This document shows positions 255 to 11,350 of a stretch of 32,668 nucleotides of DNA, piece by piece; the first letter of the stretch is position 1, and every line of letters starts with the position of its first letter. The notes below the pieces were generated by a model. It did not search any database. It worked only from the letters and a program-made list of their open reading frames with translations, and was not told where the DNA came from. The stretch lies in assembly GCA_946630035.1 (NCBI GenBank), contig CAMOYN010000003.1, positions 1 to 32,668 on the forward strand. The letters are read 5' to 3'. The translations under genes and the position numbers were made by a program. Origin of the DNA: an uncultured Lachnospiraceae bacterium (GTDB lineage Bacteria > Bacillota > Clostridia > Lachnospirales > Lachnospiraceae).

Positions 255-746
255 ATGGGGTTTGGAAGACATGTGCTCACGGTGGCGGCGGGGATTTTGC
301 TGCTGCTGGGGGTGCCTCTGATGTGCACGGAGAGGGGAAGGGGCCTTCTCCTGTCGGGGGGTGTGGATGCCGTGAGCAGTGCCTCCGTGATTCTGGATCA
401 GCCTTCGGGGGAGTATGTGGTTCTGATCAATGGGGGGATGAGGAAGAGCCAGGAGACTCTGGAGGCCTGGAAGTCCTTTTTCGGAGGCGAGGAGATTGCC
501 TACATCTTCGAGGACATTGCCTGCTCGGTAGCGGCGGGAGACGCAGGAGCTCTGGAAATGGCCCGGAGCTTCCAGTCCCGTCTGCCGGAAAATCAGATGC
601 AGATCCGTACAGAGGACGCCACTCTTCTGATGTCAAGGGCAGATCATGGAAAATTTGATGTGCTGATCATGTCGAAGGAGTTTTCCGAGGCATATCATGG
701 GGAGACAGTGCCGAAAGAAGGACTGGAATGGATCTCCCTGAATTAA
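255..746 (+). CDS. Small membrane-anchored/secreted protein of unknown function, first gene of the fumarate reductase-like operon; contains DAVSSAS
   Basis: GGGAGG RBS 8 nt upstream of ATG; N-terminal hydrophobic segment VLTVAAGILLLLGVPLM; tightly linked to the downstream cytochrome b/FrdA/FrdB genes. Confidence 0.75.
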   Translation: MGFGRHVLTVAAGILLLLGVPLMCTERGRGLLLSGGVDAVSSASVILDQPSGEYVVLINGGMRKSQETLEAWKSFFGGEEIAYIFEDIACSVAAGDAGALEMARSFQSRLPENQMQIRTEDATLLMSRADHGKFDVLIMSKEFSEAYHGETVPKEGLEWISLN

Positions 747-769: not shown

Positions 770-1330
770 ATGAGAAAATGGAATGCACGGATCAGTGTTC
801 TGATCATGGTTTTGTTTCTGATTCATGGAATTGCCGGGGGCTTTCAGCTCATGGGCCTGATCCCGGGAGGACAGCCCATTTTCCATGTCATCAGCGTACT
901 TATGGTAATCCTGATTCTGATTCATGCGGGGATTGGCTGTAAGCTGACAGTAGATACGATACGGATCTGCCGGAAAACGGGAGTTTCCTATTTTCGTGAA
1001 AATGCTTTGTTCTGGACCAGGCGGATCAGTGGAGTGGCACTGATGATTCTGGTCTTGTTTCATATCCTCCTGTTCTGGGAAAACGGGGGAGAAGTCCTGC
1101 GCCTCTCTCTGTTTGAGGGGCCACAGCTGGCGGCAAATCTCCTGATGGCGGCTTCACTGGCGGTGCACATTCTGTGCAATATCCGGCCTCTGATGGTTTC
1201 CCTGGGAAAGGAAGGCCGTCATGTGAGCGTCAGGGATATTATGCTGATCCTGGCGGCAGTGCTTCTGTTCTGTACGATTGGCTTTGTGATTTATTATCTT
1301 CGTTGGAACGTTTTCTGGAAATATCGGTAA
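770..1330 (+). CDS. Multi-TM cytochrome b-like membrane protein (putative succinate dehydrogenase/fumarate reductase membrane anchor)
   Basis: About five hydrophobic helices with His residues inside them (LIHG, IFHVI, LIHAG, LFHIL, AVHIL); sits directly upstream of FrdA- and FrdB-like genes. Confidence 0.65.
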   Translation: MRKWNARISVLIMVLFLIHGIAGGFQLMGLIPGGQPIFHVISVLMVILILIHAGIGCKLTVDTIRICRKTGVSYFRENALFWTRRISGVALMILVLFHILLFWENGGEVLRLSLFEGPQLAANLLMAASLAVHILCNIRPLMVSLGKEGRHVSVRDIMLILAAVLLFCTIGFVIYYLRWNVFWKYR

Positions 1331-1388: not shown

Positions 1389-3017
1389 ATGGATTGTGTG
1401 AATATTATCGGAGCGGGGCTGGCGGGTCTGTCGGCGGCAATGACTCTGGCAAAAAGAAATATACGGTGCCGTCTGGTGTCAGTTCAGTCTTCGGAGCGGG
1501 CGCAGTCTGTCCTGGCAGAGGGCGGAATCAATGGCGCGCTGGACACGATGGGGGAATCGGATGATGTCCGTTTTCACATGGAAGACACTTTAAAGGCGGG
1601 GGTTTATCTGGCGGATCCGGAGGCAGTGCGGGGACTTGCGGAGCATGCGCCGGAGGTGATCCGGATGCTGCGGGATCTGGGGGTTCCTTTTAATACCCTG
1701 GAGAATGGAGAAATCCGCCTGCGTAACTTCGGCGGCCAGAAAAAGAAGAGGACCGCCTATGCCAAGAGCAGCACAGGAAAGATTATTATGTCGGCGATGA
1801 TTGATGCGGTGAGGCGGTATGAAGCGGAGAGCCGGATCCTTCGGATGCCGCATCATGAGTTCCTGAAACTTGCACTCGCGTCTTCGGCGGCAGGGACGGG
1901 TGAGAGGATATGTTCCGGCGCAGTGGTCCGGGATGTCTGGACGGGAGAAGTGGAGGTGCTGCCGGGGCCGGTGATTCTTGCCGTGGGAGGAATGAATGGC
2001 ATGTTTCCGGGGATGACGACGGGAACGACAGCGAATTCGGGGGATGCCGTGGCAGCCGTTTTCCGGCAGGGAGTGCGCCTGGGAAATATGGAAATGATAC
2101 AGTATCATCCTACGACCTTCGGTATTGCAGATAAGCGGTGTCTGGTGACGGAGGCTGCCCGGGGAGAGGGCGGCCGGCTGTTCATTGAAAGAAATGGTGG
2201 CCGCTGGTATTTTATGGAGGAAAAATATCCGGAGCAGGGAAATCTGGCGTCGCGGGATGTCATTTCCCGCCAGATGTATTTTGTGATGCATGATCCTTCC
2301 TGCGGAGGACAGGTCTACCTGGATCTGACGGAGCTGGGGAAGGAGATCTGGCAGCAGCGTCTGCCGGATCTGAGGAAGGAACTGATCCATTATCTGGCCC
2401 TGGATCCGGCGAAATCCCCGATTCCGGTGGAGCCCGGGATTCACTATTTCATGGGCGGCATTGAGGTAGATGTAGGTCATCAGACGAACATCCGCGGGCT
2501 TCTGGCGGCGGGGGAGTGCTGCTGTCAGTACCACGGGGCAAACCGGCTGGGCGGAAATTCCATGCTGGGAGCCTTGTACGGGGGAAGGGTAGCGGCGGAC
2601 TCCGTGGCTGAGCAGGTTATGGAAGGAATCCGGGAAGAAACGGCGGGATCGGAGAAGGTCGGAAGCATGAATGAGGAGCTCAGAGGGGAAGAGAAAGGAA
2701 ATGCTGGGGAAATTTCCCCGGAGCTGGTCCGGCAGATTGCGGTCATCCTGGGAGATTCCTTGGGCATTGTGCGGAAGGGGGAAGCGTTGGAGGAGGCGAG
2801 GATTTCTCTGGAGAAGCTTCTGCCGCAGTGTAACAACGAACGGGAAAGAAACCGTGTGTATCTGGCGCAGGCGATGGTCATATCGGCAGAACTTCGGCGG
2901 GAGAGCCGGGGCGCTCACTACCGGTCGGATTACCCGGAGACGGAAGCCGCCATGGCAAGGCAGACCTGGGCAGAGTGGACTTCCGAAGGTGTGATGGTAC
3001 AGTTTCGTCAGAATTAA
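1389..3017 (+). CDS. FAD-dependent fumarate reductase/succinate dehydrogenase flavoprotein-like subunit
   Basis: GAGLAGLSAA FAD-binding motif, SVLAEGGINGAL, FGGQKKKRTAYAKSSTGK, YHPTT, EAARGEGG, HGANRLGGNSML. Confidence 0.88.
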   Translation: MDCVNIIGAGLAGLSAAMTLAKRNIRCRLVSVQSSERAQSVLAEGGINGALDTMGESDDVRFHMEDTLKAGVYLADPEAVRGLAEHAPEVIRMLRDLGVPFNTLENGEIRLRNFGGQKKKRTAYAKSSTGKIIMSAMIDAVRRYEAESRILRMPHHEFLKLALASSAAGTGERICSGAVVRDVWTGEVEVLPGPVILAVGGMNGMFPGMTTGTTANSGDAVAAVFRQGVRLGNMEMIQYHPTTFGIADKRCLVTEAARGEGGRLFIERNGGRWYFMEEKYPEQGNLASRDVISRQMYFVMHDPSCGGQVYLDLTELGKEIWQQRLPDLRKELIHYLALDPAKSPIPVEPGIHYFMGGIEVDVGHQTNIRGLLAAGECCCQYHGANRLGGNSMLGALYGGRVAADSVAEQVMEGIREETAGSEKVGSMNEELRGEEKGNAGEISPELVRQIAVILGDSLGIVRKGEALEEARISLEKLLPQCNNERERNRVYLAQAMVISAELRRESRGAHYRSDYPETEAAMARQTWAEWTSEGVMVQFRQN

Positions 3018-3030
3018 GGAGGAAACCCGG

Positions 3031-3750
3031 ATGCGGATAGAATTTAAGATCCTGCGGAGAGATTCGGCGGAAACCGCTGCCTGGTGGCAGGGAATTTGCT
3101 TCGAGACGGAAGACGAGAATGCTACCGTGGCGTCAGCTCTGCGAAAAATCAATGAGGCGGGAAATCTGGTGGACACAGAAGGCAGGACCGTAAAGAAAAT
3201 ACTCTGGGAGAACAGCTGTCTGCAGAAAAAGTGCGGTGCCTGTGCGATGGTGATTAATGGGAAGCCGAGATTAGCCTGTGACAGTTTCCTGCGGAATTAT
3301 CAGAAAAAAGGAAGAGGGAAGATTACGCTGGAGCCCCTGCGGAAATTCCCTGTGATTGCGGATCTGATGGTCGACCGGAGTATTTTGTTCGAAAATCTGA
3401 AACAGATGCAGCTCTGGAGCCGGGAGGAGGTCCACCTTACAGAAAAGCAGCGGGAGACGGCCTACGATGCTTCCCGGTGTCTGCAGTGTGGCTGTTGCCT
3501 GGAAATCTGCCCGAACTACCTTCCGGGAGAGTCATTCTTCGGGGCGGCAGGATTTGTTCCGGCGGCCCGGCTGATTGCGTCGCTGGAGGGAGAGGAGAAA
3601 CAAAAACTGCAGAAAGCCTACCGGGAGCATGTGTTTGCCGGGTGCGGGAAGTCCCTCGCCTGTGCAGACATCTGTCCCGCCGGGATTGAAGTGGAACGTC
3701 TCCTGGTTCGGTCCAATGCGGTCGCGGTATGGAAGAAATCGTTATTTTGA
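3031..3750 (+). CDS. Fumarate reductase/succinate dehydrogenase iron-sulfur subunit-like protein
   Basis: 2Fe-2S motif CLQKKCGACAM...LAC; CLQCGCCLEICP; CGKSLACADICP (Cx5Cx3CP). Confidence 0.88.
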   Translation: MRIEFKILRRDSAETAAWWQGICFETEDENATVASALRKINEAGNLVDTEGRTVKKILWENSCLQKKCGACAMVINGKPRLACDSFLRNYQKKGRGKITLEPLRKFPVIADLMVDRSILFENLKQMQLWSREEVHLTEKQRETAYDASRCLQCGCCLEICPNYLPGESFFGAAGFVPAARLIASLEGEEKQKLQKAYREHVFAGCGKSLACADICPAGIEVERLLVRSNAVAVWKKSLF

Positions 3751-4452: not shown

Positions 4453-5568
4453 TTGAAAATGAAAATAAAAATCCCGCTTATATTGTGTGCTGTGTGTCTG
4501 ATGGCGGGCTGCAGTCCGGGCAGGAGCACCACACCGGAGACCTCCGCCGGAGCCGGGGAAAGCACCATGGCAGAAAAAGCTTCCGAGGCTTCGGAGAAGG
4601 AACCGGTGGAGGAGGGGGCTGAGACAGAGGCGGTGAAGGAACTCTTTGCCATGGACACTTACATGACGATTCGTACCGTTGGTGCCCGGGCGGAGGAGGC
4701 GGCCGAAGCTGCGGCGAAGGAGATTGCGCGTCTGGATGCGCTCCTCTCCACCGGCAGCGAGACCAGCGAAATCTCTGTTCTGAACCGGGAGACAACCGGC
4801 CAGGTGTCTGAGGATACGCTGATTCTGGTGGAGCGTGCGAAGGAATTCTGGCAGGAGACAGAAGGGGCCTTCGACATCACGGTGTATCCGCTGATGGAAA
4901 CCTGGGGATTTACCAGCGGGGAGTACCGTGTCCCGACGGAATCGGAACTGACGGATCTGCTGCAGCATGTGGACATGAATGCGGTACAGATCGACCAGGA
5001 AAACAGTCAGATATCCTTTTCCGATGAGAATGTCCGGATCGACCTGGGCGGTATTGCCAAGGGATATACCTCGGCTCGTCTGATGGATCTGTTCCGGGAA
5101 TATGATCTGAAACACGCGATCGTGAGCCTCGGAGGCAATGTGCAGGTGCTGGGGGACAAGCCCGATGGCAGTGCCTGGCGGATCGGAATTGAAGATCCCA
5201 GCGGATCCAGGGACTATCTGGGCGTTTTGGAGACAAAAGACCGGGCCGTGATCACATCCGGCGGCTACGAGAGATATTTCGAGCAGGACGGAAAACATTA
5301 TCATCACATTCTGGATCCCTCGACCGGCTATCCCGCCGAGAGCGGACTGATCTCCGTGACCATTGTGAGTGAAGACGGAACGATGGCCGACGCCCTCTCC
5401 ACCTCCCTGTTTGTCATGGGAAAAGATAAGGCCATCGCATTCTGGCAGAACCATGCAGATACCTTCGAGATGATCCTGCAGGAAGAGGATGGAACTCTGG
5501 TGATCAGCGAAGGGCTGAAAGATGCCTTCTCCACGGATATAAAGGCAGAGTTTGTATCGCGGAAATAA
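4453..5568 (+). CDS. apbE: ApbE family FAD:protein FMN transferase, lipoprotein
   Basis: AMDTYMTIRTVGARA, FDITVYPLMETWGF, RIDLGGIAKGYTS, HAIVSLGGNVQVLG, HHILDPSTGYPA, TMADALSTSLFVMG. Lipobox LMAGC. AGGAG RBS before TTG 4453 (alternative ATG 4459); the longer ORF start at 4249 is not supported. Confidence 0.93.
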   Translation: MKMKIKIPLILCAVCLMAGCSPGRSTTPETSAGAGESTMAEKASEASEKEPVEEGAETEAVKELFAMDTYMTIRTVGARAEEAAEAAAKEIARLDALLSTGSETSEISVLNRETTGQVSEDTLILVERAKEFWQETEGAFDITVYPLMETWGFTSGEYRVPTESELTDLLQHVDMNAVQIDQENSQISFSDENVRIDLGGIAKGYTSARLMDLFREYDLKHAIVSLGGNVQVLGDKPDGSAWRIGIEDPSGSRDYLGVLETKDRAVITSGGYERYFEQDGKHYHHILDPSTGYPAESGLISVTIVSEDGTMADALSTSLFVMGKDKAIAFWQNHADTFEMILQEEDGTLVISEGLKDAFSTDIKAEFVSRK

Positions 5569-5584
5569 AGAATCTGCTGTGCCA

Positions 5585-5603
5585 TTTGAGAAAATATCTC
5601 AAA
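5585..5603. terminator. Short inverted repeat downstream of apbE (weak terminator or operator)
   Basis: TTTGAGA-AAATA-TCTCAAA. Confidence 0.3.
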
Positions 5604-5628
5604 GCCTGTAAATGGGGACCGGTTTTCA

Positions 5629-5657
5629 TTGACGTAAAAAATATGAAATGATAGAAT
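5629..5657 (+). promoter_or_regulatory. Sigma-A type promoter
   Basis: TTGACG (5629-5634), 17-nt spacer, TAGAAT (5652-5657). Confidence 0.7.
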
Positions 5658-5659
5658 AC

Positions 5660-5710
5660 GAGTGGTTAGACAATGCAAACAAATGTAAGTCTAGCCACTC
5701 TTTCTATTTT
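5660..5710 (+). promoter_or_regulatory. 5' leader stem-loop followed by U-rich tract (possible attenuator, operator or 5' stabiliser)
   Basis: GAGTGGTTAGAC (5660-5671) / GTCTAGCCACTC (5689-5700), 12 bp with one G:U, then TTTCTATTTT; AGGAGG RBS follows at 5715. Confidence 0.5.
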
Positions 5711-5728
5711 ATACAGGAGGAAAACGTG

Positions 5729-7873
5729 ATGAAACAAAGTATTAGACGTCTGCTTGCCGGTGTGTTTATGGCCGGACTGGCATTTTCCCTTGCCCCTAAA
5801 ACGGCTCAGGCAGCAGAGAAGTATGTGCTGATGAATATTCCCTACGGAGAGTTTTATGAAGCCGAGGGAGTGTCCGGAGTAGATGCCGTGACATCTGCCA
5901 CGAAGAACAAACCCCGTACAGGAACACTGGCCGGAGGATCCTATCATGTAAATGCGGACGGCACCGATATCACAGGTGTCACTTATCCGGTAAAAGTGGA
6001 GGATGACACCATTCTGGCAAACTACACCGAAATCACAGAGGAGAGTTCGGTAGACATCACTGTTACGAACCGCGGTACGACTACTACGACGACCTACAGC
6101 GGGAAAGAGGCCCTCTTTGAAGCCCCGAGCTATGCCTACTATGTGCTGAGTGAGAAACCTTCTCACTATAAGACGCTGAAGGCCGATGGCAGTTTCTCGG
6201 CTGTGCAGGGAGAGACATTTACTACGGTCTATACGGCATCGGCCGATGTGACAGTGGGAGCCCGGCATGCAGATATTGAAATCGCCCTCAGCGGAACTGC
6301 GGGAATTGCCCAGGGAGATGCGGTGTCCGGTATTGTGCTGACCGATTCCGACGGGAAAAAGTACGCTCTGCGGCATATCGTAAATATCTGGCGGACGACC
6401 GAGATCGGCTGGAACCTGTCCGATTTTGATCTGAACGGCAAGACCATTACCAATGTCCGCTATTATACTCCCACTTCCGTGATTGATTATCCTCTGAACA
6501 TCCGTATCGGTAGTTCCGGATATGTTCTGATGAACATCCCTTACGACAAATTCTATGAGGGAGAAGGAGTTCCGGGGGTGGATGCCGTTACTTCCGCAAC
6601 GAAGAGCAAACCCAGGGCGGGTACCCTGGCCGGAGGATCTTACCATGTGAATTCCGATGGCAGCGACATCACAGGAATCACTTATCCGGTGTTCGTAAAA
6701 GATATGTCTGCACTGCAGAATTACACCCAGGTCACCGATGAAAACTCCCTGACCATCACGGTGAAACTTCGCGGCCAGGAAAATACTACGACCTATACCG
6801 GTAAGGAGACCTTGTTCGAAGCCCCCAGCTATGCTTACTATGTATTAAATGAGAAGCCGGCCCGTTACAAGGTTATGAATGAGGATGGAAGTTTCTCCGT
6901 TGTCAACGGCAGAGCCGCTTCTGTTGAAGGCGCGACCGGCGAGGTGACCATCGGCGCAAGACATGCCGATGTCGAAGTGAGCCTCAGCGGTACCACCGGA
7001 ATTGAAAAAGGAGATACCGTATCCGCCATTATCATGACGGATTCCGACGGAAAACAGTACGGTCTGCGTCACATCGCGAATATCTGGCGCGGCACCGAGA
7101 TCGGCTGGAGCAACTCGGAAATGGATATGACCGGAAAGACGATCAAAAATCTCCGTTACTATACACAGGATGCCGTGATCGATTTCCCGGTGGAAATCCC
7201 GATTGTCGAAAAACAGGAAGAGCCGAGTTCGGAAGAACCGACCTCCGAAGAGCCGACCTCCGAGGAACCGTCCTCGGAAGAACCGACCAGCGAAGAACCT
7301 GGCTCGGAAGAACCGACCTCTGAGGAACCGGTTCGCGAAAAGGAGATCGTCAAGGGAAAGATTTACACCGTAGATGACATGTTCTATCGCGTAACCGATG
7401 CAGGTAAAAATGGAAAAGGCACCGTGACCCTCATCAAAGCCTCCGAGGCAAAGAAAAATAAGATGAAGAGTGTTTCCATGCGCAGAACCGTAAAGATTTA
7501 CGGGAAGACCTTCTATATTACAGCCATCGGCAACAATGCTTTCCGCGGATTTACCAAACTGCAGGTGGTAAATATCGGAAATGGCGTAAAGAAAATCGGA
7601 AAGAGAGCGTTTGCCCAGAATCCCGCCCTGCAGACCGTCGTGATCGGAAAGAGCGTCGATACAATCGGTAAACTGGCCTTCAGCGGCTGTGATAACCTCT
7701 CCTCCCTTACGATCAAAACTACGAATCTGACGAAAGAGAAGGTAGAGGCCAAAGCCTTCGCAGGTACACCGGAGAACCTGGAAGTCCGGGTTGCCAGAAA
7801 AGTACTGAAAGCCTATAAGAAACTGTTGGTAGAAAAAGGTATTTCCGGGAATGCGGTCATTGCCTCCAGATAA
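5729..7873 (+). CDS. Secreted protein with two Tp47-domain-like repeats each bearing DAVTSATK, an SEEPT linker, and a C-terminal BspA-like leucine-rich repeat region
   Basis: AGGAGG RBS at 5715; signal peptide MKQSIRRLLAGVFMAGLAFSLAPKTAQA. YVLMNIPYxxFYExEGVxGVDAVTSATKxKPRxGTLAGGSYHVNxDGxDITGxTYPV occurs twice (from ~5822 and ~6521). C-term: IGNNAFRGFTKLQVVNIGNGVKKIGKRAF. Confidence 0.85.
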   Translation: MKQSIRRLLAGVFMAGLAFSLAPKTAQAAEKYVLMNIPYGEFYEAEGVSGVDAVTSATKNKPRTGTLAGGSYHVNADGTDITGVTYPVKVEDDTILANYTEITEESSVDITVTNRGTTTTTTYSGKEALFEAPSYAYYVLSEKPSHYKTLKADGSFSAVQGETFTTVYTASADVTVGARHADIEIALSGTAGIAQGDAVSGIVLTDSDGKKYALRHIVNIWRTTEIGWNLSDFDLNGKTITNVRYYTPTSVIDYPLNIRIGSSGYVLMNIPYDKFYEGEGVPGVDAVTSATKSKPRAGTLAGGSYHVNSDGSDITGITYPVFVKDMSALQNYTQVTDENSLTITVKLRGQENTTTYTGKETLFEAPSYAYYVLNEKPARYKVMNEDGSFSVVNGRAASVEGATGEVTIGARHADVEVSLSGTTGIEKGDTVSAIIMTDSDGKQYGLRHIANIWRGTEIGWSNSEMDMTGKTIKNLRYYTQDAVIDFPVEIPIVEKQEEPSSEEPTSEEPTSEEPSSEEPTSEEPGSEEPTSEEPVREKEIVKGKIYTVDDMFYRVTDAGKNGKGTVTLIKASEAKKNKMKSVSMRRTVKIYGKTFYITAIGNNAFRGFTKLQVVNIGNGVKKIGKRAFAQNPALQTVVIGKSVDTIGKLAFSGCDNLSSLTIKTTNLTKEKVEAKAFAGTPENLEVRVARKVLKAYKKLLVEKGISGNAVIASR
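7220..7335 (+). repeat. Coding tandem repeat (SEEPT)n linker
   Basis: Translation SSEEPTSEEPTSEEPSSEEPTSEEPGSEEPTSEEP. Confidence 0.85.
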
Positions 7874-10735: not shown

Positions 10736-11350
10736 ATGTTTATGAATCAGAAAATGCGCAGCTTCGTAACCCTGGCACTGTTGACGGCATTCCTTATCCT
10801 GGGAAACGGACAGCTTGTGGCGGCGGACCGGACCTCCGGCACCTGTGGGAAACAGCTCACATGGAACTACAAAGAAGGAGTGCTGCGGATCCGGGGGAAA
10901 GGAAGGATGAAGAACTACGACGGGTTCAATAAGGAGCTGGAACTGAAGCCGGGGCCCTGGAGAAAACTGAAAATCAGGAAGATCGTGGTGGAGGAGGGAG
11001 TTACCAGCATAGGAGATCAGGCCTTTTATGGCTTCACCGCCCTTCGCCGTGTAAAACTGCCCGGGTCACTGGTAACCATCGGAAAGAACTCCTTCGAGGG
11101 ATGCGACCATCTCACTTCGATCCGGCTGCCCCGCAATCTGCGCCGGATCGGCCTCAGAGCCTTCGCTGACTGCGGGAATCTGCGAAACATCCGAATCTCC
11201 ACCACAAAACTAACAAGGAAAAAGATCGGATTAAATGCTTTTTCCGGAACCCATACGAAAGTCCATGTGAAATGCCCGAAGCGCCTGGAAAAACGCTACC
11301 GAAAGTGGCTGATCCGGCAGGGGCTGTCGATGCATTCGGTCTGGGAATAG
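10736..11350 (+). CDS. Small secreted BspA-like leucine-rich repeat protein
   Basis: GAGGAGG RBS; signal peptide; GVTSIGDQAFYGFTALRRVKLPGSLVTIGKNSFEGCDHLTSIRLPRNLRRIGLRAF repeats. Confidence 0.8.
   Translation: MFMNQKMRSFVTLALLTAFLILGNGQLVAADRTSGTCGKQLTWNYKEGVLRIRGKGRMKNYDGFNKELELKPGPWRKLKIRKIVVEEGVTSIGDQAFYGFTALRRVKLPGSLVTIGKNSFEGCDHLTSIRLPRNLRRIGLRAFADCGNLRNIRISTTKLTRKKIGLNAFSGTHTKVHVKCPKRLEKRYRKWLIRQGLSMHSVWE

Follow-up and report, generated by a model that had tools for sequence, protein, structure and literature searches.

A repeated Tp47 domain-A-related domain beside apbE in a Lachnospiraceae contig: a candidate FMN acceptor

Which protein does an ApbE serve when no FMN_bind gene is found with it? 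The question is raised by a contig from an uncultured Lachnospiraceae bacterium, analyzed here over its whole length of 32,668 nucleotides (the window), in which a lipoprotein ApbE, the sole ApbE found in a genome assembly that is 67% complete, is followed by a secreted protein with two repeats, each carrying VDAVTSAT (Table 1). In our species scan, the relatives of this genome that have a name are Firmicutes of the gut and rumen. An earlier note on this DNA had proposed that the repeats are flavinylated, and we hold that whole reading, with the domain as FMN acceptor of the adjacent ApbE and the protein as a two-FMN secreted redox protein, to be evenly balanced.

Architecture of the gene pair

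The analysis bore out the gene layout described in the earlier note: an ApbE with a lipobox (PF02424, E 3e-92; LMAGC) precedes a secreted protein whose two repeats of ~230 aa are 66% identical and hold DAVTSAT at 5882-5902 and 6581-6601, and the product runs from signal peptide through both repeats to a SEEPT spacer (15-nt repeat family D1) and BspA-type leucine-rich repeats (LRRs; LRR_5, E 1.6e-15). The ATG at 5729, rather than 5648, is the likely start of the repeat gene because AGGAGG stands ahead of it at 5715-5720; the TTGACG-17-TAGAAT element between the two genes is promoter-like in its sequence. A second BspA-type LRR gene lies in the window at 10736-11350 and resembles the tail of the repeat protein (10961-11341, E 1.9e-17).

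Table 1. Features of the left part of the window.
Feature	Coordinates	Strand	Evidence
Membrane-anchored extracytosolic 163-aa protein with DAVSSAS	255..746	+	Sequence; unrelated to the repeats
SdhC/FrdC-like cytochrome b membrane subunit	770..1330	+	PF01127, E 8e-4, sub-threshold
Fumarate reductase/succinate dehydrogenase flavoprotein subunit	1389..3017	+	PF00890, E 8e-74; NCBIfam SdhA/FrdA-type
Fumarate reductase/succinate dehydrogenase iron-sulfur subunit	3031..3750	+	PF13085, E 2e-24
ApbE, FAD:protein FMN transferase, lipoprotein	4453..5568	+	PF02424, 309 bits, E 3.2e-92; lipobox LMAGC
Promoter-like site between apbE and repeat gene	5629..5657	+	TTGACG-17-TAGAAT, extended TG
Secreted two-repeat protein	5729..7873	+	ORF; signal peptide MKQSIRRLLAGVFMAGLAFSLAPKTAQAA (by inspection)
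Repeat domain copy 1, Tp47 domain-A-related, candidate FMN acceptor	5819..6508	+	Profile A3, E 6.8e-102
DAVTSAT motif, copy 1; candidate acceptor Thr codon 5900-5902	5882..5902	+	Sequence
Repeat domain copy 2	6518..7204	+	Profile A3, E 1.0e-101
DAVTSAT motif, copy 2; candidate acceptor Thr codon 6599-6601	6581..6601	+	Sequence
SEEPT-type acidic spacer, 15-nt repeat unit	7216..7330	+	Repeat family D1
BspA-type leucine-rich repeats (LRR_5)	7517..7780	+	PF13306, E 1.6e-15

No Pfam or NCBIfam model reached its cut-off on the repeats. An AlphaFold model of copy 1 (pLDDT 96, pTM 0.92) presents the motif as a loop with a short strand before it and a short helical turn after it. The domain is placed outside the cytosol by the signal peptide and by SLH, choline-binding and FIVAR modules in its relatives. 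Exact preservation of the motif in both copies had been taken as a sign of selection; the flanking blocks YVLMNIPY and LAGGSYHVN are conserved between the copies as well, so identity within this one protein is weak evidence, and the strong evidence for the motif is its conservation across the family.

Motif conservation and relation to Tp47 domain A

We collected the family by iterated profile searches of related genomes together with a single scan across 85,462 species genomes, which yielded 78 domain loci. Motif counts were taken from an alignment of 105 non-redundant domain copies (A3), as early HMM iterations had misplaced the motif in distant members owing to an insert. In A3, position 1 is Asp in 104/105 copies (Glu in one), position 4 is Thr in 51, Ser in 42 and Ala in 12, position 5 is Ser in 99 and Gly in one, position 6 is Ala in 93, Ser in 11 and Pro in one, and position 7 is Thr in 104 and Ser in one, an acceptor hydroxyl in 105/105. 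To judge from the alignment, the Asp and the hydroxyl are essentially fixed across the family, and the motif degeneration that the earlier note would have counted against its own proposal is not seen at either residue. The Asp and Thr are no more invariant than N6, P8, F12 and W191, and the conserved polar and aromatic residues K31, S41, Y42 and H43, a short sequence distance from the motif, would be in keeping with a ligand site. More distant relatives of the domain carry SVT, SPT or KAT at the motif.

The earlier note had suggested a likeness to Tp47 domain C; a Tp47 relation was found, to domain A instead. With hhalign, the first 60 residues of the domain match Tp47 domain A-like domains (93%, E 2.8e-7), pairing VDAVTSAT with FDxVTRAT and LAGGSYH with LHRGSFQ, while the rest aligns co-linearly with domain C at only marginal significance (E 1.1e-3, probability 20%). 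These sister domain A-like domains match the Tp47 crystal chain, where the motif reads DAVSRAT, and a Tp47_a-like HMM finds window copy 1 at 24.5 bits. Common to the window domain and to PBP-Tp47_a (PF14889)/PBP-Tp47_c (PF14888) of Treponema pallidum Tp47 (1o75) are the N-terminal block Y-V-x-x-x-(I/L)-(P/S)-(Y/W)-x-x-(F/Y)-(Y/W)-x-x-E and, after it, D-x-V-(S/T)-x-A-T followed by L-x-x-G-S-(Y/F); in contrast to Tp47, the window domain lacks a ~20-residue insert ahead of the motif and has Ser rather than Arg at position 5. The two domain types co-occur in the same large proteins.

At the Pfam gathering score the window protein matches neither PF14889 nor PF14888, and a profile search of the PDB made directly with the domain gave no match. 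Foldseek with the domain model returned nothing from the PDB at E < 0.001, 1o75 being absent, and weak Ig/FN3-like matches only, whereas a control with a poorer model of a sister Tp47_a/c region retrieved 1o75 at 1.3e-12. Because the better model misses what the poorer one finds, the domain is, on these sequence and model comparisons, a divergent relative of Tp47 domain A that stands outside the Tp47 family proper. Its motif goes back to a Tp47 domain-A-like ancestor, which makes a structural or other ligand role possible. We found no paper in the open-access literature linking Tp47 to flavinylation.

The view in the earlier note that the repeat has no FMN_bind fold held: the window protein has no Pfam match to FMN_bind (PF04205) and hhalign assigns a probability of 6%, and by these profile comparisons the repeat domain is not an FMN_bind domain. 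Window-type proteins share with FMN_bind, NqrC/RnfG and multi-flavinylated proteins an extracytosolic location, linkage to ApbE, D-x-x-(S/T)-x-A-T, repeated domains and wall-binding modules. They differ in that the motif lies near the domain start, not at its end, and in position 5, which in the FMN_bind domains of the same loci is Gly in 170/203 and Ser in 4/203 (position 6 is Ala in 201/203). The fit to the ApbE-substrate consensus Dxx(s/t)gAT claimed before is therefore partial, standing for Asp 1 and the hydroxyl at 7 and failing at 5-6, where Ser-Ala replaces Gly-Ala in the window. ApbE may tolerate this Ser by analogy, since a Gly-to-Ala change in the motif keeps flavinylation at about 50%, the level to which Ala-to-Val also lowers it (PMC12052999). 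In many multi-FMN proteins the last FMN_bind domain reads D-x-V-S-R-A-T (L104:5598-7577, L072:2151-4208, L095:4679-6532 and others), an Arg-for-Gly variant that is the same as in Tp47 domain A.

Genomic linkage to ApbE

A survey of ApbE neighborhoods, suggested in the earlier note, found ApbE within about 10 kb of the domain in 25/78 loci against 0.59 expected, an enrichment of about 43-fold (Poisson p about 6e-32, taking each locus as independent). The distance from apbE to the domain gene is below 500 bp in ten loci, of which the window is one, with apbE upstream, downstream or divergent, and the linkage is seen in both gene orders and orientations. Presence in the genome was rejected as evidence, being uninformative at a background of 90% of the order (75/78 domain genomes against 266/294). 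At L079:4001-5084, in Ruminococcus faecis JCM 15917, ApbE is spread over two overlapping frames (frameshift or sequencing error).

FMN_bind accompanies the domain in the same polypeptide in 35/93 domain proteins (two genomes counted twice). Locus L104 presents a run of apbE, a multi-FMN_bind gene, a small FMN_bind gene, a NapH-like Fe-S protein and a large domain protein, which is the cluster type that PMC8238504 describes for multi-flavinylated proteins; there, large unannotated wall-binding proteins occur in such clusters (Fig. 6). The FIVAR- and SLH-bearing relatives of the window protein beside multi-FMN and NapH-like genes are proteins of this kind, and the passage on wall-binding proteins does not name the window-type domain. 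Such a cluster, present around L104 and L041, has no counterpart in the window, where no motif-bearing FMN_bind neighbor was found and where an FMN_bind gene was also sought at the left end and was absent; in this the window copy differs from the Fig. 6-type clusters. At L091:6749-9220 a motif-less FMN_bind-like N-terminal half runs straight into a domain copy with DAVSTAT, as if the following domain supplied the motif of that half. The linkage to ApbE could largely reflect FMN_bind partners in the same clusters. The domain shows a strong association with flavin-based extracytosolic redox systems, and its participation in them is considerably likelier than flavinylation of the repeats themselves.

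Of the domain genomes checked, four, the window's own (G000), G151, G169 and G222, encode ApbE with no FMN_bind detected, each absence being provisional as these are draft assemblies; in three of them (G000, G169 and G222) apbE and the domain gene are neighbors. The G222 protein, an SLH-anchored relative (L111:1781-4180) with apbE 150 bp downstream, carries the canonical DAVSGAT in the second of its otherwise ordinary domain copies and DAITSAT in the first. The same argument, in which an apbE with no FMN_bind stands next to an unrelated domain whose motif is conserved, led from orphan apbE genes to DUF2271 and DUF3570, which co-expression confirmed (PMC8238504); those domains carry (S/T)GA(S/T), whereas the window domain, mostly (S/T)SAT, is a candidate only. 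Three domain genomes without ApbE (G158, G184 and G199) were rejected as a refutation: all encode FMN_bind, so that ApbE was probably missed there through incomplete assembly.

Competing explanations and significance

In related loci, the 247,100 aa encoded by other genes contain two matches to the motif pattern D..[ST][GS]A[ST], whereas the nine leftmost window genes hold three instances in two unrelated proteins against 0.025 expected, and at that background rate it would be unlikely for two such proteins to lie around one apbE by chance. The second of these, the 255-746 protein, heads a run with the SdhC-like, FrdA and FrdB genes, and its DAVSSAS sits just outside its membrane anchor. It shows no homology beyond the motif to the repeat domain or to FMN_bind, and we regard it as a second candidate ApbE substrate of no known family. 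Its relatives read DAVSSAS, DAVASAS, DAVSRAS or DALTSAT, keeping D-A-x-x-x-A-(S/T) in 5/5 aligned sequences, and in 3/4 of them an FMN_bind-type lipoprotein and SdhC/FrdA stand alongside. The window ApbE might thus serve this protein, or FMN_bind genes missing from the incomplete assembly, and leave the repeat protein an unmodified neighbor. In genome G388, which appears to be the same as G158, one contig carries this Frd operon together with a close relative of the domain, and no ApbE was found in the assembly, which favors such an arrangement; ApbE-domain linkage that recurs at loci without the Frd operon speaks against it, and we consider it improbable, and in any case compatible with flavinylation of the repeats. 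Far less credible still is that an ordinary LRR adhesin matches seven residues by coincidence. Surface proteins with BspA LRRs are common and the window genome holds several further LRR matches, but near-invariance over 105 copies, the significance of the linkage to ApbE and the rarity of the motif elsewhere largely refute this, as does the tail itself, which is absent from the relatives examined (these have SLH, choline-binding, FIVAR or Big_2 modules instead).

The weightier alternative, a real if doubtful possibility, is that D-x-x-x-S-A-T, retained from a Tp47-A ancestor, serves the structure or binds a ligand other than flavin, that the protein, exposed on the wall, acts as a partner or scaffold in flavin-based systems, and that flavins sit on FMN_bind only. 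At the homologous site, D-x-V-(S/T)-R-A-T is present in Tp47 and in the Tp47_a domains of Clostridia, Gly is almost never found at position 5, and with N6, P8, F12 and W191 equally invariant, conservation does not point to flavin in particular. Speaking against this alternative are the DAVSGAT copy beside ApbE and the three FMN_bind-less genomes in which ApbE adjoins the domain gene; a purely structural Thr alone would leave the tight linkage unexplained. Covalent FMN on the repeat domain is a plausible candidate modification, with roughly even chances. We propose more tentatively, a little short of even, that the Tp47-A-related domain is an unrecognized class of ApbE substrate, a (S/T)-S-A-T variant bearing one FMN per domain on wall-bound proteins of Clostridia.

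If the repeats are flavinylated, we infer the following scheme. A compact extracytosolic domain, new and related to Tp47 domain A, would serve flavin-based electron transfer, and FMN would be moved from FAD onto its Asp-x-x-(Ser/Thr)-Ser-Ala-Thr loop by the lipoprotein ApbE encoded next to it. The window protein, secreted and kept near the surface by its LRR tail, would then carry two covalently bound FMNs and act as a redox protein that takes electrons from a donor in the membrane and hands them to an acceptor outside the cell.

The genomic context ties Tp47-related domains to flavin-based redox systems, a link for which we found no paper in the open-access literature. About 4% of the ApbE-bearing genomes surveyed lack a known substrate, by the survey figures given in PMC8238504, and for some of these the domain, which is widespread in gut and rumen Clostridia as part of wall-bound proteins, is a concrete candidate. 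Were the proposal true, the accepted ApbE motif would be widened, and by homology it could be asked if Tp47, the syphilis antigen, has or once had a flavin-related role for its DAVSRAT site. If FMN is really attached, the domain would define a new class of extracellular electron-transfer protein.
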